From NCBI GenBank assembly GCA_014800945.1, contig JAAVFD010000023.1:1-64000 (forward strand): a DNA stretch of 64,000 nt, read 5' to 3'. The DNA comes from Barnesiella sp. (GTDB lineage Bacteria > Bacteroidota > Bacteroidia > Bacteroidales > Muribaculaceae). This document shows, piece by piece, positions 17,607-59,166 of this stretch (its first letter is position 1; the number at the start of each line of letters is the position of its first letter). The position numbers and the translations under genes were made by a program. Under the pieces are notes generated by a model. That model was not told where the DNA came from. It ran no database searches and was given only the letters and a program-made list of their open reading frames with translations.

Positions 17607-17900
17607 TCCTTATCCACCTCACGCCGTAAAGGGAGGGGTGGCAGGAGGATAACATAATAAAAAGCGTTATTGGCGCTTGGTTTCTGACTATCTGAAACTT
17701 CGCAACTTTCAAATTCCTGTCAGGCGACCTTGCAACGATGATGCTCATGGGTGTGAATAATACCACTGTGTCATGCTGCGCGAGCTGGGTGGCGTCATTG
17801 GTTGTCATACGGCGTGAGGTCTCGTTGCTCGTTCCGACAGGTAAGGTAATGCGAAGACCTCGATTCGTGGAGCGGGCAACAATCGGCTTCACGCTTCTGC
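17607..17900 (+). ncRNA. Structured RNA family, copy A
   Basis: Member of the four-copy structured RNA family seen in this window. A 5' hairpin pairs CCACC (from 17614) with GGTGG (to 17641). The closing long-range helix pairs AAGCGT 17662-17667 with ACGCTT 17891-17896. A first internal hairpin pairs CTGAC with GTCAG. A later hairpin has stem GAGGTCT 17816-17822 with AGACCTC 17855-17861. Its loop strand GCTCGTTCC 17827-17835 can pair with GGAGCGGGC 17869-17877 as a pseudoknot. Sequence is strongly diverged from B and C but the order of elements is kept. It ends about 85 bases before the start of an unknown protein gene. Function unknown. Confidence 0.7.
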
Positions 17901-17984
17901 GTTTATACCGGCAGTTTTTGCATTGATATCTCTCAGGAAGTCAGGAGGTAATAGTATGATAAACCAATAATTATTTATTAAATC

Positions 17985-19013
17985 ATGGCACATAAAAATG
18001 ACTTTCTGTTCAGAGATGAATATGAGTATTGGCTTGAATCTGTTGCAGGAATTAAGCCTGGAGATTCTTTAGCCTGTTATGTGAGGCAGGATAAATTTGA
18101 AGGTATGGATATACCGGTGTTCGAAATTGCCGCTAACTTCATGCTAAAGGGTGAACCTATTTACGCATATTCAGCACTTGAAATGTGGGAAGAAACTGTG
18201 AAACAGTCCGGTGATAAAAATTTACCATCCTATTTCGCTCGTATTTATGAGTTTTTTCTGAGAAATGAATCTGTGCTTATGAAATCAGAGAAAGCACAGA
18301 CTCTTTCAGAGTTACAATTATCTGAAGCCCGTAGAAAATTGAACAAAAGGAAGATATTCGCGCAAATTGACGGAATGGATTCTCTGATAAATGCTTTGGG
18401 AGAGGATAATTTCGTGAAATTAGTGGTGGAATCATCATTTTTCTTTGAGCCAATGATGGTTAAGGCCCAATTTAATGATTTAGTGAGAATTTATAATAAT
18501 GGTGGTGAACTTTATGCACGGAAGTCATCATATTATCATCCAGGTTCCCGCCCTAATTTGAAAATTATAGAGGATTCTAATGGCAATTCTCAAGTTTACA
18601 AGACTATAAAAGAACTATTTGGATTTGAACTCAATAAGACCATAGATAAAAAGTCAATTCTTAATAATATTGTGTCTCACGTTTGGGGCAACGCTACCGA
18701 TCCGCGATATTTCACTGCCTTGTGGAATGTACTGCTTATACCTGCTTGGGCAAACCATCTGATGGACAAACCTACCATAGATGGCGACATTTCATCCAAG
18801 CTACAATCGACAATAAAGGATATATGTATCAAATTGTATGGACTCGATGAATTCAATTGGGCTAAAATAGCTTTACAAGGTAATAAACCGAAAGCTAATT
18901 GCAATAAAGATATACTTAAAGGCAAATATGATATTCGTGTGATAAACCATATATGTAAGGAAGATTCGTATGCAAAATTCGGAAAGATTGAAATAAAAAC
19001 AATTCAGATTTAA
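17985..19013 (+). CDS. Unknown protein downstream of RNA copy A
   Basis: 342 residues with no signal peptide and no membrane segment. I do not recognise the family. The N-terminal half is helical (about residues 40-130). Near residue 230 is a conserved-looking stretch SHVWGNATDPRYF...LWN..LIP...N, which resembles from memory an HNH-like fold motif, but this is only an impression. The base composition is more AT-rich than neighbouring core genes, and codon use looks unlike theirs, which suggests an acquired gene. It is the cargo gene of RNA copy A and is 25 bases upstream of a BspA-like gene. Confidence 0.7.
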   Translation: MAHKNDFLFRDEYEYWLESVAGIKPGDSLACYVRQDKFEGMDIPVFEIAANFMLKGEPIYAYSALEMWEETVKQSGDKNLPSYFARIYEFFLRNESVLMKSEKAQTLSELQLSEARRKLNKRKIFAQIDGMDSLINALGEDNFVKLVVESSFFFEPMMVKAQFNDLVRIYNNGGELYARKSSYYHPGSRPNLKIIEDSNGNSQVYKTIKELFGFELNKTIDKKSILNNIVSHVWGNATDPRYFTALWNVLLIPAWANHLMDKPTIDGDISSKLQSTIKDICIKLYGLDEFNWAKIALQGNKPKANCNKDILKGKYDIRVINHICKEDSYAKFGKIEIKTIQI

Positions 19014-19038
19014 CAATTAAATTGAAAGATAATATAAA

Positions 19039-21696
19039 ATGTGTAATACTATCAATATTCTAAAGCGAGTTATTCTAGTACTTCTTGCCATATCGTTTCC
19101 CGGATATCTATCAGCTCGTGACTTCACTTACACCTACGAAGGACAGACATTAACCTACACAGTCCTCAACGAAGAAGCCAAAACCTGCGAAACCAAAGCC
19201 GGAGCTTCCTCCTCTTTGGGATTAGTCATAGGCAATAATGTTTCAGGTGAGTTATCAATTCCCGAAATAGCGGAAGATGAATCCGGAAATAAATATACTG
19301 TAACAAAAATAGGCAAGAGAAGCTTTTGGAAGTGTACAGAATTAACTGGTAGCTTGATAATTCCGGAATCAGTGACAACTATCGGAGATGAAGCATTCCA
19401 ATATTGCAGTGGTTTCACCGGAGATTTGATAATTGGTAATTCAGTGATAACAATTGGATATAGTGCTTTCGAAAACTGCAGCTTTACAGGTGACTTGACA
19501 ATTCCCAATTCAGTAACTAAAATAGGATTTTATGCCTTTAGGAACTGCCGCTTTACAGGTGACTTAACAATTGGTAACTCTGTAGTTTCTATTGAAGGTT
19601 CAACATTCTCTAGTAGCGGCTTCAAGGGAAATCTGATACTTGGTAACTGCGTGACTACAATTGGACAGGACGCTTTTGGTTTTTGCAAATTCAGTAGCGT
19701 GACAATTCCTGAATCATTAATAACAATAGATACTAATGCTTTCTATAACAGTAGAGCAAGTAAGGTATATATAACATCATTGGAGTCGTGGTGTAACATT
19801 GATTTTAAGAGCAATGAGTCGAATCCCGCATATCTTAGTGAATTATACTTAAATGGCGAGTTAATCAGAGATCTTGTAATCCCCGAATCTATTACAAAAA
19901 TAAAGAATTATACATTTGATAGTTTCAGTGGCATTAGAGGAAACTTGACTATTCCGGAAACGGTTACAGAAATAGGGACGGACGCATTTACCAGTTGTGG
20001 CTTTACCGGTAGCTTGACCATACCAGCATCAGTCACGACTATAGGAGATGATGCATTTTATAACTGTGATAAACTTACCGGTAGTCTAACAATTCCCAAT
20101 TCTGTTACTAAGATTGGAAACAGTTCATTTAGATATTGCTTTGGATTTGATAGATTGATATTGGGAGAATCAGTAAAGACTCTTGGTTATGAACCTTTTG
20201 ATCAATGTAATTTTTCTGAAATTATTTCACTTAATCCTATACCTCCTATAAGTAGTGACTATGGGAACAGAGTGTTTGATGATTCTAATTACAGGGCTAA
20301 ATTAAGTGTACCAAACGGAAGTGAACAAGCATATAAAGAATCTCCGGTGTGGAGTGGATTCTTTAATACAGAAGTTGTAGTATCAGGAATATCTCTCAAT
20401 ATTGAAGAGGCTGAGATTGAAGAAGAATCGACTATGCAACTAATAGCAACTGTTGAGCCGGAAGATGCCACAGATAAGAAAGTGACTTGGAGCGGCTCGG
20501 ATGAGACAGTTGCAACCGTTGATGCAACCGGCTTGGTTACAGCTATCAAGGCTGGCACTGCCACGATAACAGCCACTACATCTAACGGTCTTACAGCTTC
20601 CTGCACTGTGACTGTTGTGCCTCAGACCGGCACCATTGACGGCATAGACTACGAGATTGTGATTGGCGGAGGTGAGGATGGCAAGGATATTGTGAAAGTA
20701 ACCGGTGGTAAAACCGATCCGGACGGCACTCTGAGAATTCCTGACGAAATTGAGATAGACGGTAAGAGATATCCTGTAACAGAGATTGGTGACGGAGTTT
20801 TCAAAAACCGTACTGATATCAGTAAACTCATAATTCCGGCTGCTGTCGGCACTGTCGGCAACGAGGCTTTCGCCGGCTGCACGAATCTCGTTGAAGTCGA
20901 GGCTGAGGACGGTGATAAACTGCTTGATTGCGGTACTGATGCTTTCAAGGACGCTCCGATAACTATACTATATCTCGGCAGAGACACATCAGGATTACCG
21001 TTCACCGGTAAGGATTCCCTCACGGATCTAACTTTCGGTGACAAGGTAACTACAATCGGAGCAGGCGACTTTACCGGCTGCGGATCCATAAAGAATATTA
21101 CCGTACTTGCTACTGTTCCTCCAACTCTGCACGACAACGGCTTTGAGCAGGTTGTGTATAAGAATGTCTCTCTGCGCGTTCCTGATACCAGTGCAGACGA
21201 TTACAGAAAAGCCGACGGCTGGAAGAATTTCTTTGATATTCTTGGAATTAACGAAATCCGCCCGATAGACATTGAGATGGAACTTGCGGATGTAGAGCTT
21301 ACCGAAGGGGAATCAACAACACTCAAAGCTATAATCACTCCCGAAAATGCCACTGACAAGAGCGTGAAATGGAGCAGTTCGGATGAAACTGTTGCGAGCG
21401 TGGATGCAAGCGGTTTGGTTACAGCAATTAAGGTTGGCACTGCCACCATCACCGCCACTACATCTAACGGTCTGACCGCGTCCTGCACTGTGACTGTGAA
21501 AGCTAAATCAGCCGGCATCGATGGCATTGAAAGTGAAACAGTGAGTGCGGTGCGAGTTGAGGGTGGAAATATTATCGCTCCGGAGGGTAGCGAGGTATTT
21601 GACCTCAGCGGAAGGAGAGTGTCGGCTACCAGTCTCCGCCCCGGCATCTACATCGTCCGCATTCCCGGCGGCAAAGCCGTGAAGATACGTCTCTAA
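19039..21696 (+). CDS. BspA-like leucine-rich repeat surface protein with Big_2 domains
   Basis: 885 residues. An N-terminal hydrophobic signal segment covers about 8-27. Many BspA-type LRR_5 repeats (recurring LTIPNSVTKIG and AF..C motifs) cover about 60-440 and again about 535-720. Two bacterial Ig-like (Big_2) domains with ATVDATGLVTAIKAGTATI-type sequence lie near 455-530 and 745-825. The C-terminus has FDLSGRRV...GIYIVRI, as in type IX-secretion sorting domains. Surface exposure is likely, with ligand unknown. A terminator hairpin follows at 21717. Confidence 0.85.
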   Translation: MCNTINILKRVILVLLAISFPGYLSARDFTYTYEGQTLTYTVLNEEAKTCETKAGASSSLGLVIGNNVSGELSIPEIAEDESGNKYTVTKIGKRSFWKCTELTGSLIIPESVTTIGDEAFQYCSGFTGDLIIGNSVITIGYSAFENCSFTGDLTIPNSVTKIGFYAFRNCRFTGDLTIGNSVVSIEGSTFSSSGFKGNLILGNCVTTIGQDAFGFCKFSSVTIPESLITIDTNAFYNSRASKVYITSLESWCNIDFKSNESNPAYLSELYLNGELIRDLVIPESITKIKNYTFDSFSGIRGNLTIPETVTEIGTDAFTSCGFTGSLTIPASVTTIGDDAFYNCDKLTGSLTIPNSVTKIGNSSFRYCFGFDRLILGESVKTLGYEPFDQCNFSEIISLNPIPPISSDYGNRVFDDSNYRAKLSVPNGSEQAYKESPVWSGFFNTEVVVSGISLNIEEAEIEEESTMQLIATVEPEDATDKKVTWSGSDETVATVDATGLVTAIKAGTATITATTSNGLTASCTVTVVPQTGTIDGIDYEIVIGGGEDGKDIVKVTGGKTDPDGTLRIPDEIEIDGKRYPVTEIGDGVFKNRTDISKLIIPAAVGTVGNEAFAGCTNLVEVEAEDGDKLLDCGTDAFKDAPITILYLGRDTSGLPFTGKDSLTDLTFGDKVTTIGAGDFTGCGSIKNITVLATVPPTLHDNGFEQVVYKNVSLRVPDTSADDYRKADGWKNFFDILGINEIRPIDIEMELADVELTEGESTTLKAIITPENATDKSVKWSSSDETVASVDASGLVTAIKVGTATITATTSNGLTASCTVTVKAKSAGIDGIESETVSAVRVEGGNIIAPEGSEVFDLSGRRVSATSLRPGIYIVRIPGGKAVKIRL

Positions 21697-21716
21697 AATT
21701 TACGTTATCTATTCCC

Positions 21717-21753
21717 CAAAATGGGCGACCCGAGTTCGGTCGCCCATTTTTTT
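21717..21753 (+). terminator. Intrinsic terminator after BspA-like gene
   Basis: The stem AAAATGGGCGACC/GGTCGCCCATTTT is followed by T's, about 20 bases after the stop codon. Confidence 0.9.
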
Positions 21754-21900: not shown

Positions 21901-21990
21901 AAGCCCTCCGGGCTTGCAAATCAGACGTGCCGGCAGAGCGTGTCCCTCTCCGATTCCTCGGAATTTTCCGAATCCTCCGATTATTCCGAC
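21901..21990. repeat. 90-base interspersed repeat, copy 2
   Basis: Ungapped match to 17383-17472 with six differences by eye. Same orientation as copy 1. Confidence 0.85.
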
Positions 21991-47854: not shown

Positions 47855-47862
47855 TACTTTTG
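47855..47862 (+). promoter_or_regulatory. Promoter of RNA copy B
   Basis: TACTTTTG -7 element with a TTTG -33 element at 47831-47834, 20 bases apart. Transcription should start near 47868. Confidence 0.65.
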
Positions 47863-47867
47863 CTGGT

Positions 47868-48194
47868 GCAGACCGCCATGAAGCCTCGGTCCGGGGATTG
47901 AGGGCGGGATGAGAAAACATAATTGAAAGCGTTTATCCGCGCTGATTCTTGACAACCTGGAATGTCTCGCAAACTTTCATAATAAAGTCAAGGATTGAGC
48001 AACGGTAGATGCCCGTGGATATGTAAAATATCGGCAACTCTTGGTATGGACATGTTAATCTTGTCTGCCGGAGTCTGTCATATATTGCATATATAGGCGT
48101 GGGCTTCTGCGTTGCCGTCCGACTTTATTAGGGCAATGCGAGAAGCCTCAGGTTGTAGGACGGTAATAGATACAGATTCCTACGCTTTTTTTTT
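47868..48194 (+). ncRNA. Structured RNA family, copy B
   Basis: A 5' hairpin pairs CCGCC 47873-47877 with GGCGG 47903-47907. The closing helix pairs GAAAGCGT 47925-47932 with ACGCTTTT 48182-48189 and runs into a T-tract, like an intrinsic terminator. Inside are a TTCTTGAC/GTCAAGGA hairpin, a GACATG-type hairpin near 48047, and an outer GAGTCTGT 48071-48078/ACAGATTC 48172-48179 helix. That helix encloses a hairpin with stem GGCTTCTGCGTTGCC (from 48102)/GGCAATGCGAGAAGCC. The strand CCGTCC 48115-48120 at its loop edge can pair with GGACGG 48158-48163 (pseudoknot). A conserved 45-base tail separates it from the glycosyltransferase start. Nearly identical to copy C. Confidence 0.8.
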
Positions 48195-48202
48195 ATAACA
48201 AA

Positions 48203-48226
48203 CCGCCAACGAGGGGAAGACTGCGG
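48203..48226 (+). promoter_or_regulatory. Small tail hairpin with GAGGGG loop
   Basis: CCGC 48203-48206 pairs with GCGG 48223-48226 and exposes GAGGGG in the loop, 24 bases before the start codon. The same arrangement occurs in copies C and D. It may mask or present a purine-rich ribosome contact site. Confidence 0.45.
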
Positions 48227-48239
48227 CACTTTTTTACCA

Positions 48240-49256
48240 ATGTCAGTTACTAATCCGGAAGTTTCGATAATTGTACCGGTTTATAAGGTTGAGAGATATT
48301 TAAATGAATGTCTTGATTCAATAATAAATCAGACTTTCACTGATTGGGAATGTATTCTTATTGATGATGGGTCTCCTGACAATAGTGGTAAAATTTGTGA
48401 TGAATACGCCTCTAAAGATACCCGATTTCAAGTGATTCATCGTAATAATGGTGGGTTGTCAGCAGCTCGTAACACCGGGCTATCAGTTTCCAGAGGAAGA
48501 TTTATAAGTTTTATTGATTCGGATGATATAGTTCATCCTGAATTTTTAAGCAACTTGTATAATTTAATAACATCGTATAAGACGGATATGGCACAAGTTT
48601 CATATGAATCAATGTTTTCAACATTTACAAGGAAGAAACATTTGGTTGATGAGATTACAGTGCTTAATCGTTCTGAGGTTATGTCCCGTTTATTAACCGG
48701 TAAATCAATGCCTAATTATCTTTGTATAAAACTGTTCAAAAAAGACATAATAGATTCACCGCTTCCCGAAAATATGGCTTTTGAAGATATTTTTGTGATG
48801 GGACAGTGGGTTAAGAATATTCATAAAATGGTATTGTCACCGGAAATACTTTACACATATCGTCGTCGTGGGAGCAGTATAGTTAATACAAATTTTGCAA
48901 AGAACAGACTCGATTTTATAAAAGCAACATTCAGTGTTGCTGAAACTTTAAGGACAATTGAACCGGAGATTTTGATGCCCGAATTAATTGATAGGTATCT
49001 ATGGAAAGGCATGGTAGCTTCCGGGAAAAAGATTGCACGTTATGAACCAAATAGAGAGATTAGAAATAGTGCCATAAATAAAGTTTCTGCTATAGGACGT
49101 AATGTGGGAGTACCTCAGCTAAAGACATTAGGACTAAAAATTTGGTTTAGAGCAAGTCTTTTAACTCATCATCCAAGAGTGTTTTCTATGCTTATGCGAT
49201 TCCTTAATAAAATAGATATTCATGCTCGTTACACAAGAAATCAGCAATTTCATTGA
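48240..49256 (+). CDS. Family 2 glycosyltransferase, cargo of RNA copy B
   Basis: 338 residues. The GT-A domain has VSIIVPVYKVERYL at the N-terminus, ECILIDDGSPDNSG near 37, NNGGLSAARNTGL near 70, and the DXD-like SFIDSDD near 90. It should add a sugar to a surface polysaccharide. It stands alone, without other capsule genes, is more AT-rich than the flanking mutB and MFS genes, and begins 45 bases after the U-tract of RNA copy B. This context suggests an acquired cassette. Confidence 0.88.
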   Translation: MSVTNPEVSIIVPVYKVERYLNECLDSIINQTFTDWECILIDDGSPDNSGKICDEYASKDTRFQVIHRNNGGLSAARNTGLSVSRGRFISFIDSDDIVHPEFLSNLYNLITSYKTDMAQVSYESMFSTFTRKKHLVDEITVLNRSEVMSRLLTGKSMPNYLCIKLFKKDIIDSPLPENMAFEDIFVMGQWVKNIHKMVLSPEILYTYRRRGSSIVNTNFAKNRLDFIKATFSVAETLRTIEPEILMPELIDRYLWKGMVASGKKIARYEPNREIRNSAINKVSAIGRNVGVPQLKTLGLKIWFRASLLTHHPRVFSMLMRFLNKIDIHARYTRNQQFH

Positions 49257-49328
49257 GTATAACTGCTCGAAGACTAACCAAAGTTTTTATCTATTGTCTT
49301 ATCTGACCAGATAAGTAAATAATTAATG

Positions 49329-49373
49329 AAAAAGCCTCGCTTATGAGCATTATTGCTCCAGCGGGGCTTTTAT
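49329..49373. terminator. Hairpin terminator downstream of glycosyltransferase
   Basis: AAAAGCCTCGC pairs with GCGGGGCTTTT across a loop with its own GAGCA/TGCTC stem. It lies between convergent genes. Confidence 0.8.
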
Positions 49374-49432
49374 TTTGGTCTTTAGAGACTCTAATGCCTC
49401 TAACTACTCGAAATTCATTGTTGAACCGGCTC

Positions 49433-49783
49433 TTAGTCTTTGAGTTTATCGGCAAGATTGTGGGCTGCGTCAGCTCCCTTTTCGAGGAGGTCTGATGCCA
49501 TGCCTTTGAGTTTGTCTGTAAAGTTTCCGACTTTTTCACTTGCCTGCTCCTTGATGTCGGCAAACTTGTCGCTTGCCTGACCCATAATGTCGTTAAGCTT
49601 GTCCTGAGCGGCTGCTACCTGAGCGGCTGCCTGCTCTTTAGTTGCTTCAAAAGCACTTTTGGCTGCTGCGGTTGTTTCGTTAGCTTGCGCCTTTGCGGCT
49701 GCTAATCCTTCCTGAGCTGCGAGTTTCGCTGCTTCAACACTTACCTGTGCGGCTTCCTGAGCCACTTTCTTAGAGTCTTCCAT
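49433..49783 (-). CDS. Ala-rich amphipathic helical protein
   Basis: 116 residues from MEDSKKVAQEAAQ; the ATG at 49783 is preferred to a longer frame because the composition becomes regular there. Almost entirely Ala, Lys, Glu and Gln in 11-residue-like amphipathic periods (AAKAAFEATKEQAAAQ type), as in LEA-like or apolipoprotein-like stress proteins. It has no signal peptide, membrane segment or Cys. Function unknown; a protective or membrane-surface role is only suggested by composition. Confidence 0.72.
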   Translation of the reverse strand: MEDSKKVAQEAAQVSVEAAKLAAQEGLAAAKAQANETTAAAKSAFEATKEQAAAQVAAAQDKLNDIMGQASDKFADIKEQASEKVGNFTDKLKGMASDLLEKGADAAHNLADKLKD

Positions 49784-49877
49784 ATTCAATAGTTGTTTTG
49801 TGGTTGATAATTTAACAGTCAAACGCAATAATCGCCTCTATTGTTGACTAATCTACACAGATTTATATGATTTTATG

Positions 49878-49885
49878 TACCTTTG
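49878..49885 (+). promoter_or_regulatory. -7 element TACCTTTG
   Basis: Fits TAnnTTTG, 41 bases before the MFS gene. Confidence 0.55.
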
Positions 49886-49925
49886 CATAATAATTCATAT
49901 TCATTTACAAAAATCATTTTAAGTA

Positions 49926-51389
49926 ATGGCAGAAGAAATAAAAAATAACAGCGCGACTGAAGCGGTGGCGCAACTGCTCAACGATAAGGCTTGGGCACGC
50001 TGGCTTGCACTGGTGCTCATAGCATCGATGATGTTTTTCGCATATATGTTTGTAGATGTGATGTCACCGCTACAGAGTTTGCTCGAAAAGGCTCCTCTCG
50101 GATGGTCGGCAAGTGCTTTCGGCAATTATGCAGGGGCGGAATATATGCTCAATGTATTCGGATTCCTTATTGTAGCAGGAATCATTCTTGATAAAATGGG
50201 CATCCGTTTCACCGGAGTGCTTTCTGCTTCGGTAATGGTTATCGGTGCGGTGATTAAACTCTATGCAGTCAGCAGTTGGTTTGCCGGTTCTGCTTTCGAT
50301 TTATGGCTCAGCTCATGGTGGACTGCTATGCCGGGCAGTGCGAAGCTCGCGGCATTCGGCTTCATGATTTTTGGCTGTGGATGCGAAATGGCGGGTATTA
50401 CTGTCAGCAAGGCTATTGCCAAATGGTTTGAAGGTAAGGAAATGGCTCTCGCAATGGGAATTGAAATGGCTATAGCACGTCTCGGTGTATTCGCCGTACT
50501 TTCTATTTCACCTCGTCTTTCAGAGTGGTGGGGGGCAAACGACCCTTCTGTAGTTCCTCCGGTAGCCTTCTGTACCGCTCTTCTGTTTATCGGTCTTATA
50601 AATTATACCGTATTCACTTTCATGGACATACAGCTGGACAAACAGACCGGCGCGGATAAGAAATCAGAAGGTGGAGAAGAGGAATTCAAGGTAAGCGATG
50701 TGAGCAACCTGCTCAAGAGCAAACTTTTCTGGATTATTGCTCTTCTCTGCGTGCTTTACTACTCGGCAATCTTCCCGTTCCAGCGCTTCGGCACCAATAT
50801 GCTTCAGTGCAATCTCCATATATCAGATGTAGCTGCAGCTGATATTCTCCGCTGGTTCCCGATTGGTGCGCTTATTCTAACACCTCCGTTAGGTTTCTTC
50901 CTTGACAAGGTAGGTAAAGGTGCTACAATGCTTATTATCGGTTCAATTCTTCTCATCTGCTGTCACCTTGTATTCGCGCTCGTATTACCATCTGTGCCGA
51001 GTACCGGTCTTGCTCTTGCAACTATCATAGTTCTCGGTGTATCTTTCTCACTTGTTCCGGCAGCTCTATGGCCTTCAGTGCCCAAGGTAATGGACGCCCG
51101 CTATCTCGGTAGCGCATACTCATTGATTTTCTGGGTACAGAACATAGGTCTATTCGGAGTGCCTATTCTCTTCGGCAAAATCCTTGAAGCTTCAAATGTC
51201 GGAGTGGAACCGATGGATTACAACTACACCAATCCGATGCTCATGTTTGCCGGATTCGGAGTTGCAGCGCTCTTCTTCGCTCTCTGGCTCAAGATTCTCA
51301 ATGGAAAGCATAATTATGGTCTTGAAAAACCCAATATCAAGAGCTCTGCTGAAACAGAGGAAGCAGAATCCATGACTATCGACATGTAA
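49926..51389 (+). CDS. MFS transporter
   Basis: 487 residues with about 12 transmembrane segments. The loop between segments 2 and 3 reads GIILDKMGIRFTG, close to the MFS motif A, and a second such loop GFFLDKVGKGAT lies near 325. A cytoplasmic central loop near 238-255 is charged. Substrate not deducible. It looks like a core gene in composition, with its own promoter and terminator. Confidence 0.85.
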   Translation: MAEEIKNNSATEAVAQLLNDKAWARWLALVLIASMMFFAYMFVDVMSPLQSLLEKAPLGWSASAFGNYAGAEYMLNVFGFLIVAGIILDKMGIRFTGVLSASVMVIGAVIKLYAVSSWFAGSAFDLWLSSWWTAMPGSAKLAAFGFMIFGCGCEMAGITVSKAIAKWFEGKEMALAMGIEMAIARLGVFAVLSISPRLSEWWGANDPSVVPPVAFCTALLFIGLINYTVFTFMDIQLDKQTGADKKSEGGEEEFKVSDVSNLLKSKLFWIIALLCVLYYSAIFPFQRFGTNMLQCNLHISDVAAADILRWFPIGALILTPPLGFFLDKVGKGATMLIIGSILLICCHLVFALVLPSVPSTGLALATIIVLGVSFSLVPAALWPSVPKVMDARYLGSAYSLIFWVQNIGLFGVPILFGKILEASNVGVEPMDYNYTNPMLMFAGFGVAALFFALWLKILNGKHNYGLEKPNIKSSAETEEAESMTIDM

Positions 51390-51415
51390 ATCATTTTGTC
51401 AGATCAAATATCAAA

Positions 51416-51450
51416 AATCGGGGGCTAATCATGAGATTAGCCCCCGATTG
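51416..51450. terminator. Terminator between MFS and ion channel genes
   Basis: AATCGGGGGCTAATC pairs perfectly with GATTAGCCCCCGATT around ATGA. It serves the MFS gene and, in the other direction, possibly the minus-strand operon. Confidence 0.9.
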
Positions 51451-51474
51451 TTTGTTTATAAATAATAAATAGCG

Positions 51475-52293
51475 TTAAGATGACTTTAATTTGTCTTTTT
51501 GTTCAGATAATTCCGCCATGGCAACCTGATAATTATTTATTACAGCTCCTGTAACTAAATTCAACAGTAAAAATACAGCAATGCAAAACCAAGAGACAAA
51601 ATAACAGGTGATTGCAGTAGGATGAACATTAATTATTCCTAAATCTGATGCAGTGATGAGATTATATCTTAAATCTGTCCAATCTTCTGCTGTCAGAGCT
51701 CTGAAAAGCGTGAATATCCCTTCGCCTATGTTTCCAAAAGGATCTGGAGAATTAGTAGGTGTTGGAGGAGCTACAGCCGTGAGTATTTCAATTTTCTCTG
51801 CCGATACAGGCAATCTGAACAGCGTAACACCGGCAACAGCATATAAATAGGCAAATATTAAGAATAACAAGCAATTATATATCATTGATTTTACACTTTT
51901 CGCGAGTACTGTTACAATCAGCTTGATTTCCATACTTGCACGAAGAAGCCTTAAGATTCTGAATGTCCTCATTATTCTTATCATTGTTATTGCCGATGCG
52001 TTTGTGGCAATAGATGGTGGAATCCATCCAATAATAACCAATGACAGATCAAATATATTCCAGCCATCCTTTAAGAAGTCCCTTATACTATTTGCGGCTA
52101 TAAATCTGATAACTATTTCAAACGAAAACACCCACAATATGAAGTGCTGAATATTATCAACAATAGTATTGTGCAAGGATGTTTGAACACCAATCAGTAC
52201 TGAGTTTATAATAATTATTGCCGTAATTACTATATCAAATATTTTAGACTGGCAGATTTTAATTGATGTATGTTTTAGGTCGTTAGTTAGCAT
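51475..52293 (-). CDS. Voltage-gated-type ion channel
   Basis: 272 residues with a single six-segment (S1-S6) ion transport unit. S4 is clear: MIRIMRTFRILRLLRAS near 105-121, with Arg every third residue. The pore helix and filter read TLFRALTAEDWTDL near 200, which resembles Na+/Ca2+-type filters (TxEDW). S6 and a short coiled tail follow. It should form a homotetrameric cation channel. Last gene of the minus-strand accessory operon, 79 bases after the preceding gene. Confidence 0.88.
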   Translation of the reverse strand: MLTNDLKHTSIKICQSKIFDIVITAIIIINSVLIGVQTSLHNTIVDNIQHFILWVFSFEIVIRFIAANSIRDFLKDGWNIFDLSLVIIGWIPPSIATNASAITMIRIMRTFRILRLLRASMEIKLIVTVLAKSVKSMIYNCLLFLIFAYLYAVAGVTLFRLPVSAEKIEILTAVAPPTPTNSPDPFGNIGEGIFTLFRALTAEDWTDLRYNLITASDLGIINVHPTAITCYFVSWFCIAVFLLLNLVTGAVINNYQVAMAELSEQKDKLKSS

Positions 52294-52372
52294 ACATTAG
52301 CGGTAAATTACAGTAAGAGAGGGTGAAAAATATTCACCCTCTGCTACTCTTATTTTTATAAATGAAATGAAA

Positions 52373-52906
52373 TTATGAGAATATAGGTGCAAAAGATGCA
52401 AATCCAATAAATGTATATAAATATGCTTCGACAAATCTCATATATCCAATAGATAGATCCGTTTCAAATAATTCTTTAGCACTCGAGTTCAAAACAAATA
52501 ACTTGCTATACATTTCGTCGGCATTTTGAAATCCATACACACCAAATATTGATCCAATAAAAACGCTTATTCCTATACATATCCAAAGATAGGTTTTCAT
52601 TCCTGAATGCAATGTTATTATTGAATCAAATTCACCTAATAAAAGAAGCAAGGGGGAAACTAGTATTAGCGTATAACAAACTAAAGTACCCTTCCCAATT
52701 TCTTGTGCTGCTTCAAAAGCCAGACCTGAAAATATGGCTATAGAAATTCCATACGCACTGAATTCTGCTGCTGCATCAGGATTAAATTTCAGAGATATCA
52801 TACCTGCTATATAACAAATTACTACCGTAGGTATGAATCCCCAAATTTTCATATTTGCAATCATCCACGTCTTAAATCCAGATTCTTCAATATTATAAAT
52901 TGACAT
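52373..52906 (-). CDS. Unknown membrane protein
   Basis: 177 residues with four or five hydrophobic segments (near 21-42, 50-68, 75-92, 105-125 and 158-175). I do not recognise the family. The N-terminus is soluble, beginning MSIYNIEESGFKTW. It sits third in the operon, 25 bases after the CXXCXGXG protein gene. Confidence 0.7.
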   Translation of the reverse strand: MSIYNIEESGFKTWMIANMKIWGFIPTVVICYIAGMISLKFNPDAAAEFSAYGISIAIFSGLAFEAAQEIGKGTLVCYTLILVSPLLLLLGEFDSIITLHSGMKTYLWICIGISVFIGSIFGVYGFQNADEMYSKLFVLNSSAKELFETDLSIGYMRFVEAYLYTFIGFASFAPIFS

Positions 52907-52931
52907 TGCTAAATTTTTTTAGTTAAACCTA

Positions 52932-54122
52932 TTATATTTTCTTTTTGTATTTTTTTGATAATTCTTCAATAAATGAAATAGTCGGAACAAAACCTAAATC
53001 CATGTGAAATTTATCACTAGTGATATAAAATTCACACGCATTATCGTTATATGTTATGGTAATCTTCTTTACCAATCCTTCAGGAATTTTTTTAATTTCA
53101 ATTGCAAATCCTACAAGATACTGATTCTTTTCTTTGACAAATGAACTCTTAATAATATCCTTTAAATAATCGGTAAGATACTTGTCGTCACAATCATCAC
53201 ATTCTAACTTACTAACTGTTTCAGGTTTAGAAAAATAGATTATGGAGTCCTGATTCTGGATTTTTTCAGGATAAGTAATACTGATTCGATCATTATTGTT
53301 GAATATAATTGAAGAGTCATTTTCAATTTGATATGACTCATAGAGTTTATTTACCGTTGCTGCAGATTTAGCTCCATCCTTTTTCCCTGTACCATCGCAT
53401 GCATCGCAAGGAAATGATTTTTGGCCTCCGCAATTTTCACAAATTTCAATTCCGCTTCCTTGGCATACAGGACACTGAGTTCTACGTTCCGAATAGCTAT
53501 TACGTTCATGAAGTGTACCGTCAACCCAATAGGTATCTTTACTTACAATTTCGCGATGAGTTTGTGGATTTAAGCCGGTTCCACCACAGCATGAACATGT
53601 AACTGAGCCTTTTCCGTTACACGAACTACATATTTTAATGCCAGTGCCCTTGCAATGTTTACACAATGGTACATTTCCTTTTGACCTAACCTTGATTATT
53701 CTAGGGTCAGAATCTTGTGGTGTAAGTTCACGACCTTCTAAATAAGCTCCTAAATAATCCTCAGTTAATAGAACCACTACTTCTTCATTCGTAATTTGAA
53801 AAGGTAGTTTTTCCGGCTCTAAATCAAATTCCGGTTGGTCACAATCTGTGATCACTTCACTGTTTATTTCTCTTTTGGCGTATATTTTATAACAAGAAAT
53901 ATAATATCCTTCTAAATTCTCAATTGTTGCATTATATTCAGAAAGATGCTTAAACCATCGCTTCTGGCCTGAGTCTAAATCCTCCAATTTTTTTGTCCAT
54001 AATGATATTTCACGCAATATGGACTTGATGTTAGCATTTATGTTAAGCGATAATTCATAATAATCAGTATCTGATAAAACTTCTTTTGGATCAACATCCA
54101 ATATTTGAGTATTTATTTTCAT
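52932..54122 (-). CDS. CXXCXGXG zinc-finger protein (DnaJ-type)
   Basis: 396 residues from MKINTQILD; the ATG at 54122 overlaps the upstream stop as ATGA and is preferred to a longer frame. Residues about 175-250 hold DnaJ-type zinc clusters: CKHCKGTGIKICSSCNGKG, CSCCGGTGL, CPVCQGSGIEICENCGGQ and CDACDGTGK. No J domain is present. The C-terminal part is beta-rich and unrecognised. Such a module usually binds unfolded or partner protein. A further Cys-pair, CDDCDDKY, lies near 330. Confidence 0.75.
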   Translation of the reverse strand: MKINTQILDVDPKEVLSDTDYYELSLNINANIKSILREISLWTKKLEDLDSGQKRWFKHLSEYNATIENLEGYYISCYKIYAKREINSEVITDCDQPEFDLEPEKLPFQITNEEVVVLLTEDYLGAYLEGRELTPQDSDPRIIKVRSKGNVPLCKHCKGTGIKICSSCNGKGSVTCSCCGGTGLNPQTHREIVSKDTYWVDGTLHERNSYSERRTQCPVCQGSGIEICENCGGQKSFPCDACDGTGKKDGAKSAATVNKLYESYQIENDSSIIFNNNDRISITYPEKIQNQDSIIYFSKPETVSKLECDDCDDKYLTDYLKDIIKSSFVKEKNQYLVGFAIEIKKIPEGLVKKITITYNDNACEFYITSDKFHMDLGFVPTISFIEELSKKYKKKI

Positions 54123-54739
54123 AATTCTGTAGATATTACTTTGTTCCACCAATCCCATGAGTAGCCTGCGGAGGGGTGGTACACCCACAGTACTCTTGCT
54201 TCTTTGCCATTTGAAAGGCGATAATATCCGTTTTTGACTTTGTAACCTTCAATCACAAGTTCCTCACCGTCTCTCCATCGTTCTCCGCCGGGCATATTAT
54301 CATACATACGGGTTACGCCCCAAACTATGATTAAATCGGGTTGAAGTTCATCAATTACTTCAAAGAATGCATCGGCTGAATCACGAAAATCAACCCAATC
54401 AGGCTGTATCCTTGATTGATCCGCGGATTTTTGAACATAGTTGTAGAAAGCTACGGAGTTCCAAATGTTTCTACTCTCTTCCAGGTTCGTATCATGTCCA
54501 ACCAAAGATTTTTCAAACTTATGAAATGTACCGGTCCAGCTGTCTGTTTCACCTGACATTATCACATCCATGCAATGTGTGGTGGTAAAATCAGCGCACT
54601 CATCTACATTCCCGATATTCCCACACTTGTCACACCCTCCACAAATGTGAGCTTCCCCCAAAACAAGAATCTTCTTATCAAAGATTCCACCTGAATGGTA
54701 TTTATCTCCGATCCAGGGTTTGAAAAATACTTTTCCCAT
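54119..54739 (-). CDS. UDG-like superfamily protein, first cargo gene of RNA copy C
   Basis: 206 residues from MGKVFFKPW. The ATG at 54739 follows the conserved RNA tail; the longer open frame to 54844 runs into RNA copy C and is rejected. KKILVLGEAHICGGC near the N-terminus and LIIVWGVTRMYDN near 140, with a Trp-rich C-terminus (YHPSAGYSWDWWN), resemble the uracil-DNA-glycosylase-like fold, but the catalytic motif is not clearly identifiable. A CGGCDKCGN cysteine cluster could bind metal. It overlaps the next gene by four bases. Confidence 0.65.
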   Translation of the reverse strand: MGKVFFKPWIGDKYHSGGIFDKKILVLGEAHICGGCDKCGNIGNVDECADFTTTHCMDVIMSGETDSWTGTFHKFEKSLVGHDTNLEESRNIWNSVAFYNYVQKSADQSRIQPDWVDFRDSADAFFEVIDELQPDLIIVWGVTRMYDNMPGGERWRDGEELVIEGYKVKNGYYRLSNGKEARVLWVYHPSAGYSWDWWNKVISTEL

Positions 54740-54752
54740 TATAATTAAGATG

Positions 54753-54776
54753 CCGCGGTCTTCCCCTCGTTGGCGG
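54753..54776 (-). promoter_or_regulatory. Small tail hairpin with GAGGGG loop
   Basis: On the minus strand CCGC (54776-54773) pairs with GCGG (54756-54753) around GAGGGG, just before the start of the UDG-like gene. It is the same arrangement as in copy B. Confidence 0.45.
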
Positions 54777-54783
54777 TTTGTTA

Positions 54784-55141
54784 TAAAACAAAAAGCGTAG
54801 GAATCTGTATCTGTTACCGTCCTTCTGTTAGAGGCTTCTCGCATTGCCTATTGGAGTTGGACGGCAACGCAGAAGCCCACGCCTGTATATGCAATAATAT
54901 GACAGATTCATGCAGACATGATTAACATGTCCATGCCAAGAATTGCCGATATATTTTACATATCCACGGGCATCTACCGTTGCTCAATCCTTGACTCCAA
55001 TGAAATTTTGCGAGAATTTCTAACAATCAAGAATCAGCGCGGATAAACGCTTTCTATAAATGTCACATCCCACCCTCTGTCCCCGAACAGGGAACTGATT
55101 CAGATGAATCTTACCCAACTGGCGTGGACAGTGATGTTCTG
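54784..55141 (-). ncRNA. Structured RNA family, copy C
   Basis: Inverted near-copy of copy B. The 45-base block 54951-54995 is the exact reverse complement of 47987-48031. The closing helix pairs 55054-55047 (GAAAGCGT) with 54798-54791 (ACGCTTTT). An internal hairpin reads GACATG-TTAAT-CATGTC, repaired to a perfect stem compared with copy B. The outer helix GAATCTGT/ACAGATTC is perfect here, against one G-U in B. The loop strand CCGTCC (54864-54859) pairs with GGACGG (54822-54817). It precedes the four-gene minus-strand operon. Confidence 0.8.
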
Positions 55142-55147
55142 CGTCAA

Positions 55148-55155
55148 CAAAGATA
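55148..55155 (-). promoter_or_regulatory. Promoter of RNA copy C
   Basis: TATCTTTG on the minus strand; start expected near 55141. No clear -33 element. Confidence 0.6.
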
Positions 55156-55479: not shown

Positions 55480-56733
55480 ATGAAACACTTCTTACTTCTT
55501 ATTTCACTGCTGCTGGTTGTATCCATTGAAGGGTATGCATTTGAAGTCCGGGATTCCGCTTCAATTCATTTCCGTCAGGGTAGGTCGGTAATTGAACCGA
55601 AACTGTATGGCAACAGCGAGGTGCTCGACAGTTTAATCGGTGCCTTTAACGCAGATTCCGCAAATGCCACTTCCAGGAGGCTTAAAAAGATTATTTTTGT
55701 GGGGACAGCTTCCCCTGAAGGTTCTGTAACTATTAACAGACGGCTCTCTCAGAAGCGCGCTGATAATTTGTTCAACTATCTATCGCATAGGGTTCAGATG
55801 CCTGATTCTGTGACAGGCTTTGAATGGGAAGGCAGAGACTGGAAGGGTCTTTATGAAATGGTTGAAGCAGATCAAAACGTGCCTTGCCGGGAGGAGGTTC
55901 TTCAGCTGATAGAAGAAGTATATAAAGATGTTACCGCTCACGGTGATAATGCTTCAAACCTTGCCAGGATTCAGAGATTCAAGGGCGGAGTGCCTTATGC
56001 ATATATGTATTCTAATCTGTTCCCCGCTCTTCGTGCATCAAAAATATACACTTATTATGATATGCCGTCCCTGCTGAAAGGTATAGGCGGGTATGCTTGC
56101 TTCATTCCGGAGGATATATCATTTGATGGCGTAACTCCTATTGCTTTCACAAGAAAGGAGCGTAAGCCGTTTTATATGTCACTAAGTACAAATATGCTGT
56201 ATGACGCTCTCGCTGTGCCGAATATCGGGGCAGAATTCTACATAGGAAAGAACTGGTCGATAGCAGGTAACTGGATGTATGGATGGTGGGATAAAGATTC
56301 CAGCCACAAATACTGGAGAGCCTACGGTGGCTATCTTGCTGTAAGGAAGTGGTTTGGTAAGGCTGCTGATGAAAAGCCCCTTACAGGAAACCATATCGGG
56401 CTTTATGCCGGGGTTGTAACTTACGACTTTGAATTCGGAGGTACCGGTTATATGGGGGGATTACCCGGAAGAACTCTCTGGGATCGCTGCAACGCAATGG
56501 TTGGAGTAGAGTACGGCTACTCTTTGCCTGTAAGCAAGCACTTTAATATTGATTTTACCATTGGTGTAGGTTACCTCGGTGGTAAATATATAAAATATGT
56601 TCCCGATCATGATTTTTATGTGTGGAAAGACACCAAACATCTTAACTGGTTCGGTCCTACAAAAGCTGAGATTTCGCTTGTATGGCTTTTGGGACATGAC
56701 AATTATAACCGCAGGAAAGGAGGTATGAAATGA
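55480..56733 (+). CDS. DUF3575 / OmpA-like outer-membrane protein
   Basis: 417 residues from MKHFLLLISLL (ATG at 55480 chosen because the signal peptide begins there; a GTG at 55441 is the alternative). After the signal peptide (to about 19), residues 20-190 look OmpA-like (SIHFRQGRSVIEP, FVGTASPEGS..NRRLSQKRADNL). The C-terminal DUF3575 region (about 240-415) is a beta-barrel-like tail with many aromatic strands. Such proteins precede fimbrillin genes in Bacteroides and are probably accessory envelope components. Overlaps the next gene by four bases. Confidence 0.82.
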   Translation: MKHFLLLISLLLVVSIEGYAFEVRDSASIHFRQGRSVIEPKLYGNSEVLDSLIGAFNADSANATSRRLKKIIFVGTASPEGSVTINRRLSQKRADNLFNYLSHRVQMPDSVTGFEWEGRDWKGLYEMVEADQNVPCREEVLQLIEEVYKDVTAHGDNASNLARIQRFKGGVPYAYMYSNLFPALRASKIYTYYDMPSLLKGIGGYACFIPEDISFDGVTPIAFTRKERKPFYMSLSTNMLYDALAVPNIGAEFYIGKNWSIAGNWMYGWWDKDSSHKYWRAYGGYLAVRKWFGKAADEKPLTGNHIGLYAGVVTYDFEFGGTGYMGGLPGRTLWDRCNAMVGVEYGYSLPVSKHFNIDFTIGVGYLGGKYIKYVPDHDFYVWKDTKHLNWFGPTKAEISLVWLLGHDNYNRRKGGMK

Positions 56734-57686
56734 AAACTATTAAACTTAAAGGAGTCCTTGCAGTAATGGCTTTAGTGGTTTCACTCTCGTCCTGCAGGCA
56801 TAAAGAGCTTTATGATGAAGAAATCAGCTACCAGGATATTGAGGTAGTGTTTGACTGGCGCAACGCTCCCGATGCCAATCCTGCCTCAATGGTGTTGTAC
56901 CTTTATGAGCAAAAAGGCGGCACTCCTCTGAGATATGTCTTTTCGGGCAGAAACGGAGGTAAGATAAGACTTCCGTACGGTACTTATAACTCAATAACCA
57001 TGAATGGTGATGATACTGATTGGGCATACGACAATAATATCAATGATATAGACAATTTCACGACTGTTACTCACGAGGTTCATCCGAGTATAACAAGCAG
57101 CACATATTCGGCACATGTATCAAGAGCAGATGAGTCGAAGATTGTGGAGAATCCGAAAATGCTCTGGAGTGACAGAGTTGACGGTTTTACCCTTTCATCA
57201 GCAGACTACAATACGAGAAAAGTGCTTACGCTGTATCCTGAAGAGGCTGTTTGTCACTACACAGTGACTGTACTTGATGTAGAAAACATCGACAGTGTGT
57301 CAGGCACAAAAATCGAGGGAATACTTTCGGGTTTGGCTGAAGGATTCAAGCACGGTCAACAGGCAAACGGTGGCGAGAGTGTAATTATGCCGCTTGAACT
57401 GAATGTTGATGTTGCTGATGACAAACTTTCCGGACAGTTCCTGACATTCGGTGAGGAGACTCATGAGCAGCACAAAGATATTCTTTCGCTTTATCTAAAT
57501 CTTGCAGACGGGTCACGATGGTACTCTGATTTTGATGTAACCGATCAGGTGCATAACGCTAAGGATCCACATCACGTTGACATAGTGATACGCGGAATCA
57601 AGCTTCCCGTAGGTGAGGGTAGTCCCGGTGGTTTTACCGCTGATGTGAGTCCCTGGCAGCGGGTTGACATCTATTTGCCCATGTAA
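56730..57686 (+). CDS. DUF5119 fimbria-associated lipoprotein
   Basis: 318 residues. Lipobox VVSLSSC near 22 gives a lipid anchor. The rest is beta-rich and fits DUF5119 / Mfa2-FimB-like anchor proteins that cap or tether fimbriae. Lies between the OmpA-like protein and the fimbrillin. There is a 48-base gap to the fimbrillin gene. Confidence 0.78.
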   Translation: MKTIKLKGVLAVMALVVSLSSCRHKELYDEEISYQDIEVVFDWRNAPDANPASMVLYLYEQKGGTPLRYVFSGRNGGKIRLPYGTYNSITMNGDDTDWAYDNNINDIDNFTTVTHEVHPSITSSTYSAHVSRADESKIVENPKMLWSDRVDGFTLSSADYNTRKVLTLYPEEAVCHYTVTVLDVENIDSVSGTKIEGILSGLAEGFKHGQQANGGESVIMPLELNVDVADDKLSGQFLTFGEETHEQHKDILSLYLNLADGSRWYSDFDVTDQVHNAKDPHHVDIVIRGIKLPVGEGSPGGFTADVSPWQRVDIYLPM

Positions 57687-57734
57687 TGTGTTATAATAAT
57701 AAATGGATTGAAAATATACTAAAACTATAAAACA

Positions 57735-58805
57735 ATGAAAAAGTTGTATTTCTTAATGCTTGGCGCACTTGCTGTTTCAATGGCAGCTTGTTCTGATGAA
57801 GAACCATCATTGCGCAAAACGGATGGTGAAGCCATTGATTTCCGTCCCGGATTCAGCGGTTCAAGAGCCACCGAGACCACAAATGCAAACCTCAAGTCAA
57901 TCACTGTAACAGCGATTGACTCAGTGGGCGGAGCAAACTATTTTACAGATCTGACCTTTAATAAAGGCAGTGACGGATTCTTTACTTCATCACCGGTGTA
58001 TTTCTGGCCGGGTGATGACAGGAGTCTTACATTCTACGCCTACTATCCAACAATGGATGAGCTTAATGCCGACATAACTATTGATGCCTCAACCAAAGAA
58101 ATGACCGGTTTTGTGGTAGCTGACAGCATTAAGGATCAGGTGGATTTTGTAACTGCTGTAGCCAAAGGTAATAAATCGTCTAATGAGGCAAGTGGTGTAG
58201 AATTGACTTTCAAGCACCAGCTGTCACAGATTGAGCTACAGGCAAGATCAGATTCAAAAGCTTATAAGACTGAGGTAGCCGGTATGAGAATCGGACGAGT
58301 GGAATATATGGCATCATCTTTTGACTTCGCCACATCTAAGTGGACTCTTGATGAGTGGCATGACACTTTTGTATATTCATCAAGCTGTACACCTGTGGTT
58401 TTAGGGTCAGACCCTGTTTCTATTATGGGTGATGCCGGCAATGCGATGCTTTTGCCTCAGACTCTCTATCCGTGGAATCCTGTAGGAGACCCTGATAATG
58501 CAGCCCGTGAGCGCTATCTTGGTGCTCTTGTGAGAGTTACTACTGTTGACGGTGATGTGGTATTTCCGTTGCCAGGCTCAAACAAGACTTACGACTGGGT
58601 TGCATTACCATTGTCAGGTACATGGGAAGCAGGCAAGCACTATGTTTACACTCTTGATTTCACAAAAGGTGCCGGTTATATAGACCCTGATGGTCCTAAT
58701 CCCGGTAAGCCTGTAATTCAGGGTGAGATTAAGCTTGATGTAGATGTCAGCGATTGGGTTAACGACTCAAAAGATGTGTCAATGGAAGCAACGCTCCATA
58801 AATAA
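57735..58805 (+). CDS. Fimbrillin family lipoprotein
   Basis: 356 residues. Lipobox SMAACS near 15-20. It has the pattern of Bacteroidales fimbrillins: IDFRPGFSGSRAT after the anchor, FYAYYP near 95, FKHQLSQIELQA near 158, and the C-terminal YVYTLDFTKG and DVDVSDWVND strands. It is predicted to polymerise, after proteolytic removal of the N-terminus, into type V-like pili. Final gene of the locus, followed by a strong terminator. Confidence 0.85.
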   Translation: MKKLYFLMLGALAVSMAACSDEEPSLRKTDGEAIDFRPGFSGSRATETTNANLKSITVTAIDSVGGANYFTDLTFNKGSDGFFTSSPVYFWPGDDRSLTFYAYYPTMDELNADITIDASTKEMTGFVVADSIKDQVDFVTAVAKGNKSSNEASGVELTFKHQLSQIELQARSDSKAYKTEVAGMRIGRVEYMASSFDFATSKWTLDEWHDTFVYSSSCTPVVLGSDPVSIMGDAGNAMLLPQTLYPWNPVGDPDNAARERYLGALVRVTTVDGDVVFPLPGSNKTYDWVALPLSGTWEAGKHYVYTLDFTKGAGYIDPDGPNPGKPVIQGEIKLDVDVSDWVNDSKDVSMEATLHK

Positions 58806-58820
58806 ATCTAACTCATATTC

Positions 58821-58870
58821 AAATAATTAAAGCGGATGAAACCAATCGGTTTCATCCGCTTTAATTATTT
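58821..58870 (+). terminator. Strong hairpin terminator after fimbrillin
   Basis: AATAATTAAAGCGGATGAAA and onward pairs perfectly over more than 20 bases with 58849-58870 around a three-base loop. Confidence 0.9.
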
Positions 58871-58907
58871 GTTGCTGTCCTTTGGAAAACTTCATACTGA
58901 TTTTTAC

Positions 58908-58915
58908 TATATTTG
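58908..58915 (+). promoter_or_regulatory. Promoter of RNA copy D
   Basis: TATATTTG -7 element with a TTTG at 58881-58884 as a possible -33 element (spacing 23). Start expected near 58921. Confidence 0.6.
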
Positions 58916-58920
58916 CAGAC

Positions 58921-59166
58921 GGTTAGATATTATTTTATCTATCCGGACATATTTGAAAAGCGTTTTTGCTTTATCCTTCATTCCGAAATCGCCAATTTTC
59001 ATTTGATAGAGGAGAAAGCAGTCAGAACGCTCATGCTTGTCGCATATCCGCTCCCCGACAAGGGGCATCGATAGTCGATAAGGCGTGGGAGCGGACTGTT
59101 TATTCTATCAAGGCGTTTGGCGATGCCGGGAATGAAATATTCAGTAGAATCGTCCCGCGCTTTTCC
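58921..59166 (+). ncRNA. Structured RNA family, copy D
   Basis: The closing helix pairs GAAAAGCG 58955-58962 with CGCTTTT 59158-59164. A hairpin TGCTTTATCC/GGAGAAAGCA is possible near the start. Strands of that hairpin's loop can alternatively pair far downstream: TTCATTCC 58977-58984 with GGAATGAA 59129-59136, ATCGCCA 58988-58994 with TGGCGAT 59118-59124, and TTGATAG 59003-59009 with CTATCAA 59105-59111. The apical hairpin has stem CTTGTCG 59036-59042/CGACAAG 59056-59062, and its loop CCGCTCCC 59048-59055 pairs perfectly with GGGAGCGG 59087-59094. The most diverged copy in sequence, but it keeps the pseudoknot. Confidence 0.75.

Follow-up and report, generated by a model that had tools for sequence, protein, structure and literature searches.

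The RNA leaders designated copies A, B, C and D in the window (the whole 64,000-nt stretch of Barnesiella DNA analysed here) are confirmed, at the level of sequence and predicted fold, as members of one superfamily that has more copies than first noted. These leaders are probably cis-acting 5'UTR RNAs of Bacteroidales, about 350 nt long, in which a cross-paired junction would gate read-through or ribosome access.

A preliminary description of this DNA had presented the copies as a four-member family with a common order of elements and widely different sequences. The main-type covariance model, built from 91 copies that include B and C and exclude A and D, recovers A (E 8e-23), B and C in the window, the next row having an E-value of only 2.8. 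Copy D was missed by this model in the window search, and a profile HMM matched it marginally, in two segments (E 0.053 and 0.87) at the right place and in the right order. The D subfamily has the same helix order as the main type and its own covariation, which upholds the relatedness of the four copies and their common layout. The divergence of sequence holds for A and D and fails for B and C, since leaders B (47922-48228) and C (54751-55057) are inverted copies that are 86% identical over most of their length. The family itself is real but far larger than four: 15 matches were obtained in the genome of origin at E<=1, two of which are opposite-strand echoes attributable to the quasi-palindromic core, leaving 13 main-type loci (the weakest at E 6.5e-8) in addition to D.

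The occurrence of many homologs in Bacteroidales, as had been anticipated, is borne out by several searches that each count the genome of origin. BLAST with one copy found matches in 66 of 148 relatives at E<=1e-3, relatives of copy D were detected by BLAST in 44 of the 148, and the model matched at least 61 of 393 genomes sampled from the order (E<=1e-5), a lower bound in that five candidates were scored per genome. In a phylum-wide sample of 296 genomes, the genome of origin was the sole match, with none in the 295 others. Ten genomes picked as already positive, with 150 candidates scored, yielded 4 to 23 model rows each, a few of which could be echoes from the opposite strand. At least 116 stretches of named genomes contain the 19-mer GCGTGGGCTTCTGCGTTGC; among 80 of these, we take two to be clostridial, one to be unassigned and the others to belong to Bacteroidales. 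All 117 loci with the 19-mer, including a single viral one, match the RNA profile at E<=1e-3. Leader-bearing isolates include Phocaeicola oris, Paraprevotella clara, Duncaniella muris, Hallella mizrahii and Xylanibacter rodentium.

The family had gone unrecognised in the preliminary description, and comparison with Rfam 15 agrees: no family reached its gathering score on the leader RNA, either in the window or at 18 further loci. A permissive scan of the window returned four chance-level matches (E 2.8-8.4), and the only matches at the 18 further loci were two tRNAs and two DUF805b elements, all away from the leaders. These DUF805b cis-regulatory RNAs (RF02914) lie at L175 4793-4827 (-) and L199 7370-7404 (+), loci that also carry leaders. 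A description of the leader RNA was not found in a literature search by title and abstract opening that covered the best-ranked matches and few subscription papers.

Table 1. Positions of the leader copies, their structural elements and the adjoining genes in the window.
Feature	Position	Strand	Basis or remark
Copy A promoter -7 element, TATCTTTG	17594..17601	+	sequence reading; family statistic
Copy A leader RNA region	17602..17984	+	up to start codon 17985; covariance-model match 17677-17882, E 8e-23
Copy A P1 span	17661..17897	+	strands 17661-17666/17892-17897; sequence reading
Copy A SL1	17684-17723	+	V1 17689-17693, V2 17712-17718; sequence reading
Copy A SL2 segments	V3 about 17839-17845, V4 17862-17866	+	sequence reading
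Copy A PK3	17885-17890 (GGCTTC) with 17937-17942 (GAAGTC)	+	matched-partner test
Copy A downstream gene	17985..19013	+	342 aa, no Pfam match
BspA-type LRR protein gene	19039-21696		second behind leader A
Copy B promoter -7 element, TACTTTTG	47855..47862	+	sequence reading
Copy B leader RNA region	47863..48239	+	up to start codon 48240; covariance-model match 47942-48169, E 1e-60 (model member)
Copy B P1	47926-47931/48183-48188	+	
Copy B S1a	47948-47953/47987-47992	+	
Copy B V1:V4	47954-47958 with 48150-48154	+	
Copy B V2:V3	47980-47986 with 48124-48130	+	
Copy B kissing loops	47965-47971/48137-48143	+	
Copy B S2a	48111-48120/48158-48167	+	
Copy B hairpin H3	48203..48228	+	start-codon-proximal; 3' end 11 nt before ATG
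Copy B downstream gene	48240..49256	+	family 2 glycosyltransferase
Copy C promoter, TATCTTTG	55155-55148	-	sequence reading
Copy C leader RNA region	54740..55147	-	covariance-model match 55037-54811, E 9e-59 (model member)
Copy C P1	55053-55048/54797-54792	-	
Copy C V1 and V4	V1 55025-55021; V4 54830-54826	-	
Copy C downstream gene	54119..54739	-	206 aa (MGKVFFKPWIG...), no Pfam match
Copy D promoter -7 element, TATATTTG	58908..58915	+	sequence reading
Copy D leader RNA region	58916..59240	+	D subfamily
Copy D P1	58957-58962/59158-59163	+	
Copy D S1a	58968-58978/59009-59019	+	
Copy D V1:V4	58979-58984 with 59129-59134	+	
Copy D V2:V3	59003-59009 with 59104-59111	+	
Copy D kissing loops	58988-58995/59117-59124	+	
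Copy D PK3	59151-59156 with 59201-59206	+	
Copy D downstream ORF	59241..59462	+	small, membrane-like, 73 aa, no Pfam match
Agmatine/peptidyl-arginine deiminase-like gene (PF04371)	59496-60752		second behind leader D

The alignments support a layout that would comprise, in order, a 5' hairpin, the P1 5' strand AAAGCG, a hairpin SL1, a middle hairpin whose tip is variable, a hairpin SL2, the P1 3' strand CGCUUU, a U-rich stretch, a hairpin H3 and the start codon. Each of the hairpins SL1 and SL2 consists of a basal stem, two variable segments and an apical stem-loop, with the basal stems S1a (CUUGAC:GUCAAG) and S2a (GUUGCCGUCC:GGACGGUAAC). The two hairpins are additionally paired with each other: V1 of SL1 with V4 of SL2, V2 with V3, and the apical loops through UCUCGCA:UGCGAGA. 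This cross-pairing, together with the pseudoknot PK3 described below, extends the earlier account, which had noted the AAAGCG/CGCUUU closing helix and a large pseudoknotted RNA. The closing helix was located in all four copies, with one end pair mismatched in A, and the pseudoknotted character is substantiated by covariation above controls in both types. Main-type covariation reached 0.309 (91 copies), compared with 0.139+-0.003 for shuffled and at most 0.076 for slid alignments, and the D type, which differs from the main type in the letters of most stems, reached 0.271 (40 distinct copies), compared with 0.128+-0.006 and at most 0.138, respectively; these controls are generous, since the structure was read from the same sequences and the shuffles ignore relatedness. 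Both the covariance-model and the Rfam checks favour a family without a counterpart in Rfam.

The variable helices carry the strongest signal. The eleven highest pairs by corrected mutual information are all V pairs (0.8-1.6 bits, 95-99% standard pairs). Among 165 distinct copies with 84 different V1 words, V1:V4 is paired at five of five positions in 155, at four in 4 and at three or fewer in 6, and three shuffles of partners gave 5 to 8 fully paired copies. In the D alignment, V1:V4 is paired in 95% of cells, V2:V3 in 57.5% and S1b in 69%, the two low values being in part due to misalignment. Even the diverged L250 and L251 of the genome of origin have S1a, V1:V4, V2:V3 and P1 rewritten yet paired, as judged by eye. 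Alternating helices within and between SL1 and SL2 are supported in one alignment of 91 copies. With these pairings, S1a, V1:V4, S2a and V2:V3 are predicted to meet in a four-way junction that leaves few bases unpaired, and we infer that all of them form at once. Junction, apical stems and kissing loops taken together would resemble a paranemic crossover.

The single-sequence folds of B, D and A exceed all of their own shuffles in stability (z of -4.6, -5.8 and -4.5, respectively), and the best such fold of copy A is one without P1. V1:V4 of copy A is weak, with 3 bp by eye. An internal loop with GGCGUG is present in A, B and D, and entropy is low across most of the core.

A competing pairing has been considered for S2a, whose strand s3 is also able to pair with s2 (GGAUUGAGCAACG) instead of s4, producing a rod; s2 and s4 are alike in sequence. 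RNAalifold, which cannot draw pseudoknots, favours the long nested rod, and the rod helix covaries (0.211, compared with 0.147+-0.007 shuffled), whereas S2a alone lies barely above its control in the same alignment (0.210, compared with 0.198+-0.005), a result owed in part to misalignment of diverged copies in this region. In a test independent of the alignment, which sampled 130 of 179 stem sets, S2a was better matched than the rod (z -13.9 versus -4.8, with -11.5 for S1a) and more stable (-19.1 versus -14.6 kcal/mol), and S1a, S2a and the rod each fitted their own partner over shuffled ones (0 of 2000 shuffles each). Since the rod covaries and is chosen by RNAalifold and the S2a signal is weak in that alignment, the junction could be one of two states; it is taken here as the main one, with the rod as a possible switch partner or folding intermediate.

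The preliminary description had placed a TAnnTTTG promoter ahead of all four copies, and each was found there by reading. Across the family, 182 of 203 leaders have TAnnTTTG in the 150 nt that precede the core, compared with 16 of 203 for a control window 300-450 nt upstream. At the other end, P1 is short and A/U-rich, encloses about 250 nt and is directly followed by the U-rich stretch, with an average of 6.5 T among the first eight bases after its CGC, about the first three of which pair in P1; P1 is a weak candidate for an intrinsic-terminator stem. PK3 links the two sides of this stretch: AGAUUCC, immediately internal to the P1 3' strand, is complementary to the H3 loop (GGAAUCU) on the far side. 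The best-helix score of own PK3 partners was 15.0 in the D type, compared with 12.1+-0.4 for shuffled partners (39 of 41 copies covered), and 12.6 in the main type, compared with 11.3+-0.2 (87 of 92 copies), reached in 0 of 2000 shuffles in both cases and with about five rows of visibly misplaced segments kept. Since H3 and PK3, which lie beyond the U-rich stretch, fit their own core, selection appears to act on the longer transcript.

A same-strand ORF of at least 50 aa starts within 130 nt in 200 of 226 testable leaders among 260 distinct ones, by raw count, and the argument is one of narrow spacing: the distance from P1 to the ORF has a median of 61 nt, with quartiles of 56 and 77. The remaining 26 have no such ORF in reach. 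Similar figures came from separate counts, with an ORF behind 78 of 92 copies at a median of 60 and medians of 61 for 98 rows and 53 for 40 D-type rows.

The downstream genes are diverse, in line with the earlier observation that they have nothing in common beyond an accessory look. The 213 downstream proteins form 116 BLAST clusters, of which 79 are single, and the largest (28 proteins) comprises BspA-type LRR proteins. Pfam searches of 146 of the 186 representatives identified 66 families overall, with LRR_5 in 21. An exported-type N-terminus was called in 94 of 129 downstream proteins and in 340 of 805 other nearby ORFs by a crude hydrophobicity rule, some of the control ORFs possibly being spurious. 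Judged by these sequence features, the leaders precede unrelated genes, often of putative envelope or secreted proteins, in gut Bacteroidales.

Several features of the window bear on the surroundings of the copies. Direct repeats of 90 nt (93% identical; 17383-17472 and 21901-21990) flank copy A and its two genes, and because of them this unit could be open to gain or loss by recombination. The inverted leaders B and C flank 48240-54739, and inversion of the segment between them could occur. For copy C, ATG 54739 is the preferred start codon over ATG 54844 within the RNA; the latter opens a 241-aa frame, and a coding reading of it was rejected as accidental because the linkers differ by indels among copies. 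Homologs of the 206-aa protein of copy C were found behind leaders in other genomes. A perfect 24-bp inverted repeat resembling a terminator (58820-58871) lies directly upstream of the copy D promoter. PADLOC returned no match for 10 genes of the window.

As far as the sequences of close copies indicate, the V helices evolve faster than the rest of the leader, mostly with compensation. In L086 and L092, which reside in one genome, 12 of 27 V positions differ compared with 6 of 404 elsewhere (Fisher P 4e-12), and pairing is kept. Similar V change is seen, in part, in L115/L357 and L073/L077, each pair also within one genome; for L073/L077, a leader swap is possible, since the upstream part and the variable hairpin differ too. 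All-or-none replacement of V was considered and rejected, as intermediates exist (3 of 5 and 3 of 7 in L086/L092), and saltation is accordingly not claimed.

Conservation of V was compared with that of the flanks in 63 leader pairs whose identity outside V is 90% or more, with flanks of at most 1.5 kb, shorter at contig ends. V showed 0-2 changes in six of seven pairs that are homologous on both flanks, compared with 0 of 45 that are homologous on neither, a comparison confounded by divergence in that the syntenic pairs are mostly the closer ones; the six pairs represent four leader groups, three of the pairs being formed by L203/L208/L297 and another, L326/L327, lying within one genome, and the 45 come from 25 leaders. 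Eleven one-flank pairs, one with V unchanged and L086/L092 among them, stand outside this test. In this small and confounded sample, close syntenic copies mostly keep V, and copies with unrelated flanks do not. In G011, the leaders of L326/L327 and of L071/L325 share about 97% identity in each pair, so that two strains in this bin are possible. The odd syntenic pair is L003/L013: L003, from the genome of origin, has SL1 and SL2 of different codes and looks like a recombinant. Mismatched at both V helices beside its matched relative L013, it is a natural candidate for a broken code. L139/L233 (two genomes; upstream 88% and gene 87% identical), in which V1:V4 is kept and V2:V3 replaced, and L118/L344, which have one core and V in common within one genome despite unrelated flanks, stand against a simple rule linking V to synteny, whereas L093/L104, with V kept at 72% gene identity, are in its favour. 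Three palindromic repeats around GGACATGATGTATCATGTC occur with 68-nt spacing at L015 (-) 1320-1483; this palindrome recurs as the variable tip in some leaders (L003 type), which gives the impression that the RNA has captured a REP-like repeat.

Avoidance of cross-pairing between leaders of one genome was not found among ordered pairs of 146 copies in 48 genomes, from which gapped copies and those below four of five V1:V4 pairs were excluded: full V1:V4 pairing occurred in 26 of 734 pairs within genomes and 597 of 20436 between them, with label shuffles giving P of 0.82, 0.17 and 0.49. This result argues against distinct codes being selected for in general, in a test that is low in power because random codes are already distinct.

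In the mechanism proposed for a cis-acting leader, the RNA would be transcribed together with the downstream gene, and the V helices would let SL1 recognise SL2 of its own transcript, a recognition presumably private to that transcript. Folding of the core may respond to a signal, possibly at the GGCGUG internal loop, and would decide whether P1, PK3 and H3 form, whose state in turn would set read-through past P1 and/or ribosome access to the start site. Reuse before many unrelated, often exported proteins implies that the leader would respond to some general cue and not to a metabolite of one pathway. The layout is like that of riboswitches, among which the leader is not counted here. Beyond this, it is only tentatively suggested that the leader is a natural paranemic-crossover RNA in which V1:V4 and V2:V3 form a copy-specific self-recognition code, rewritten as a rule after duplication. 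A rival with a somewhat better claim, plausible even if the balance tips against it, sees a metabolite riboswitch or protein-binding attenuator with a broad regulon and V helices that are neutral spacers. Such a regulator would account for several copies per genome before unrelated genes, for the spread over the order and for the internal-loop motif common to A, B and D. Neutral spacers poorly explain the concentration of changes in V of L086/L092, which strong constraint on the rest of the leader may nevertheless explain.

The preliminary description had left two readings side by side, a cis-acting leader and an independent RNA travelling with cargo; narrow spacing and a pseudoknot reaching the start region suit the former, and the latter fits less well. 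An independent RNA of about 280 nt, ended by P1 and the U-rich stretch and acting in trans as a scaffold or sponge, with the gene expressed by partial read-through, is considered unlikely: the U-rich stretch directly after P1, the low entropy over most of the core and the several copies per genome speak for it, yet H3 and PK3 beyond that stretch fit their own core and the spacing to the start codon is narrow. Travel with cargo is likewise not upheld, as one query leader had no match in plasmid and phage records, the viral collection held the 19-mer in one contig only (L238 1-14678), and most testable leaders lead into an ORF. On L238, the gene behind the leader encodes an EF-Tu-like GTPase and its neighbours include HerA-like and AAA ATPases; the contig is not clearly phage. 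Somewhat less probable again is a portable IRES-like module that recruits the 30S subunit without a Shine-Dalgarno sequence; reuse before 116 protein clusters and a pseudoknot reaching the start region accord with it, but a regulator would look the same. A mobile DNA element or gene cassette, with the quasi-palindrome as a recombination or transposition site and the RNA incidental, is very improbable. The core does match its own reverse strand, L118/L344 pair one core with unrelated flanks, and direct repeats surround copy A, but a promoter, a pseudoknot fitted to its own core by the start codons and a narrow spacing are hard to reconcile with a DNA site, and the plasmid and phage search with one query leader likewise speaks against it.

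Second-messenger riboswitches of the c-di-GMP-I type are found in many copies per genome before unrelated genes, a placement also seen for the leader; unlike them, the leader has no Rfam match and has cross-paired hairpins and copy-specific helices. Paranemic crossover (PX) motifs, in which two hairpins exchange pairing at alternating segments, are known as nanotechnology designs, and SL1 and SL2 would exchange pairing in the same manner; a natural example was not found in a narrow literature search of titles. Among previously described RNAs, an excerpt of Weinberg 2010 (PMC2864571) names Bacteroidales-1 (RF01693), Bacteroides-1 (RF01694) and others as structured RNAs of Bacteroidales or Bacteroides, and the Rfam models of these two stay below gathering score on the leader RNA in the window and at the 18 further loci. 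The FopS sRNAs of B. thetaiotaomicron are described in the excerpted source as a multi-copy family with sigma-ABfr promoters, trans-acting and made up of a single-stranded 5' stretch and a terminator hairpin (PMC11697453). On that account, the leader is likewise a multi-copy Bacteroidales RNA but differs in being long, knotted and adjoined to a gene. The ornate RNAs GOLLD, ROOL and OLE form homo-oligomers according to the part of the source consulted (PMC12286853). The leader would similarly be a large ornate RNA, the covarying contact being read here as lying within one transcript that continues into the gene.

No Rfam family matches the leader. In its proposed fold, two hairpins are cross-paired by helices that are hypervariable yet complementary, and its evolution combines a near-invariant core with changing helices. 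Gut Bacteroidales are prominent in the intestinal flora, and, to our knowledge, few cis-regulatory RNAs are known in these bacteria. An RNA module that extends from promoter to start codon before about a hundred unrelated, often exported protein families would suggest that the cell surface is under shared control at the post-transcriptional level. If the self-recognition code were true, each mRNA would fold with itself and not with sister leaders, and gut Bacteroidales would possess a genome-wide set of orthogonal cis-pairing codes over exported accessory proteins.
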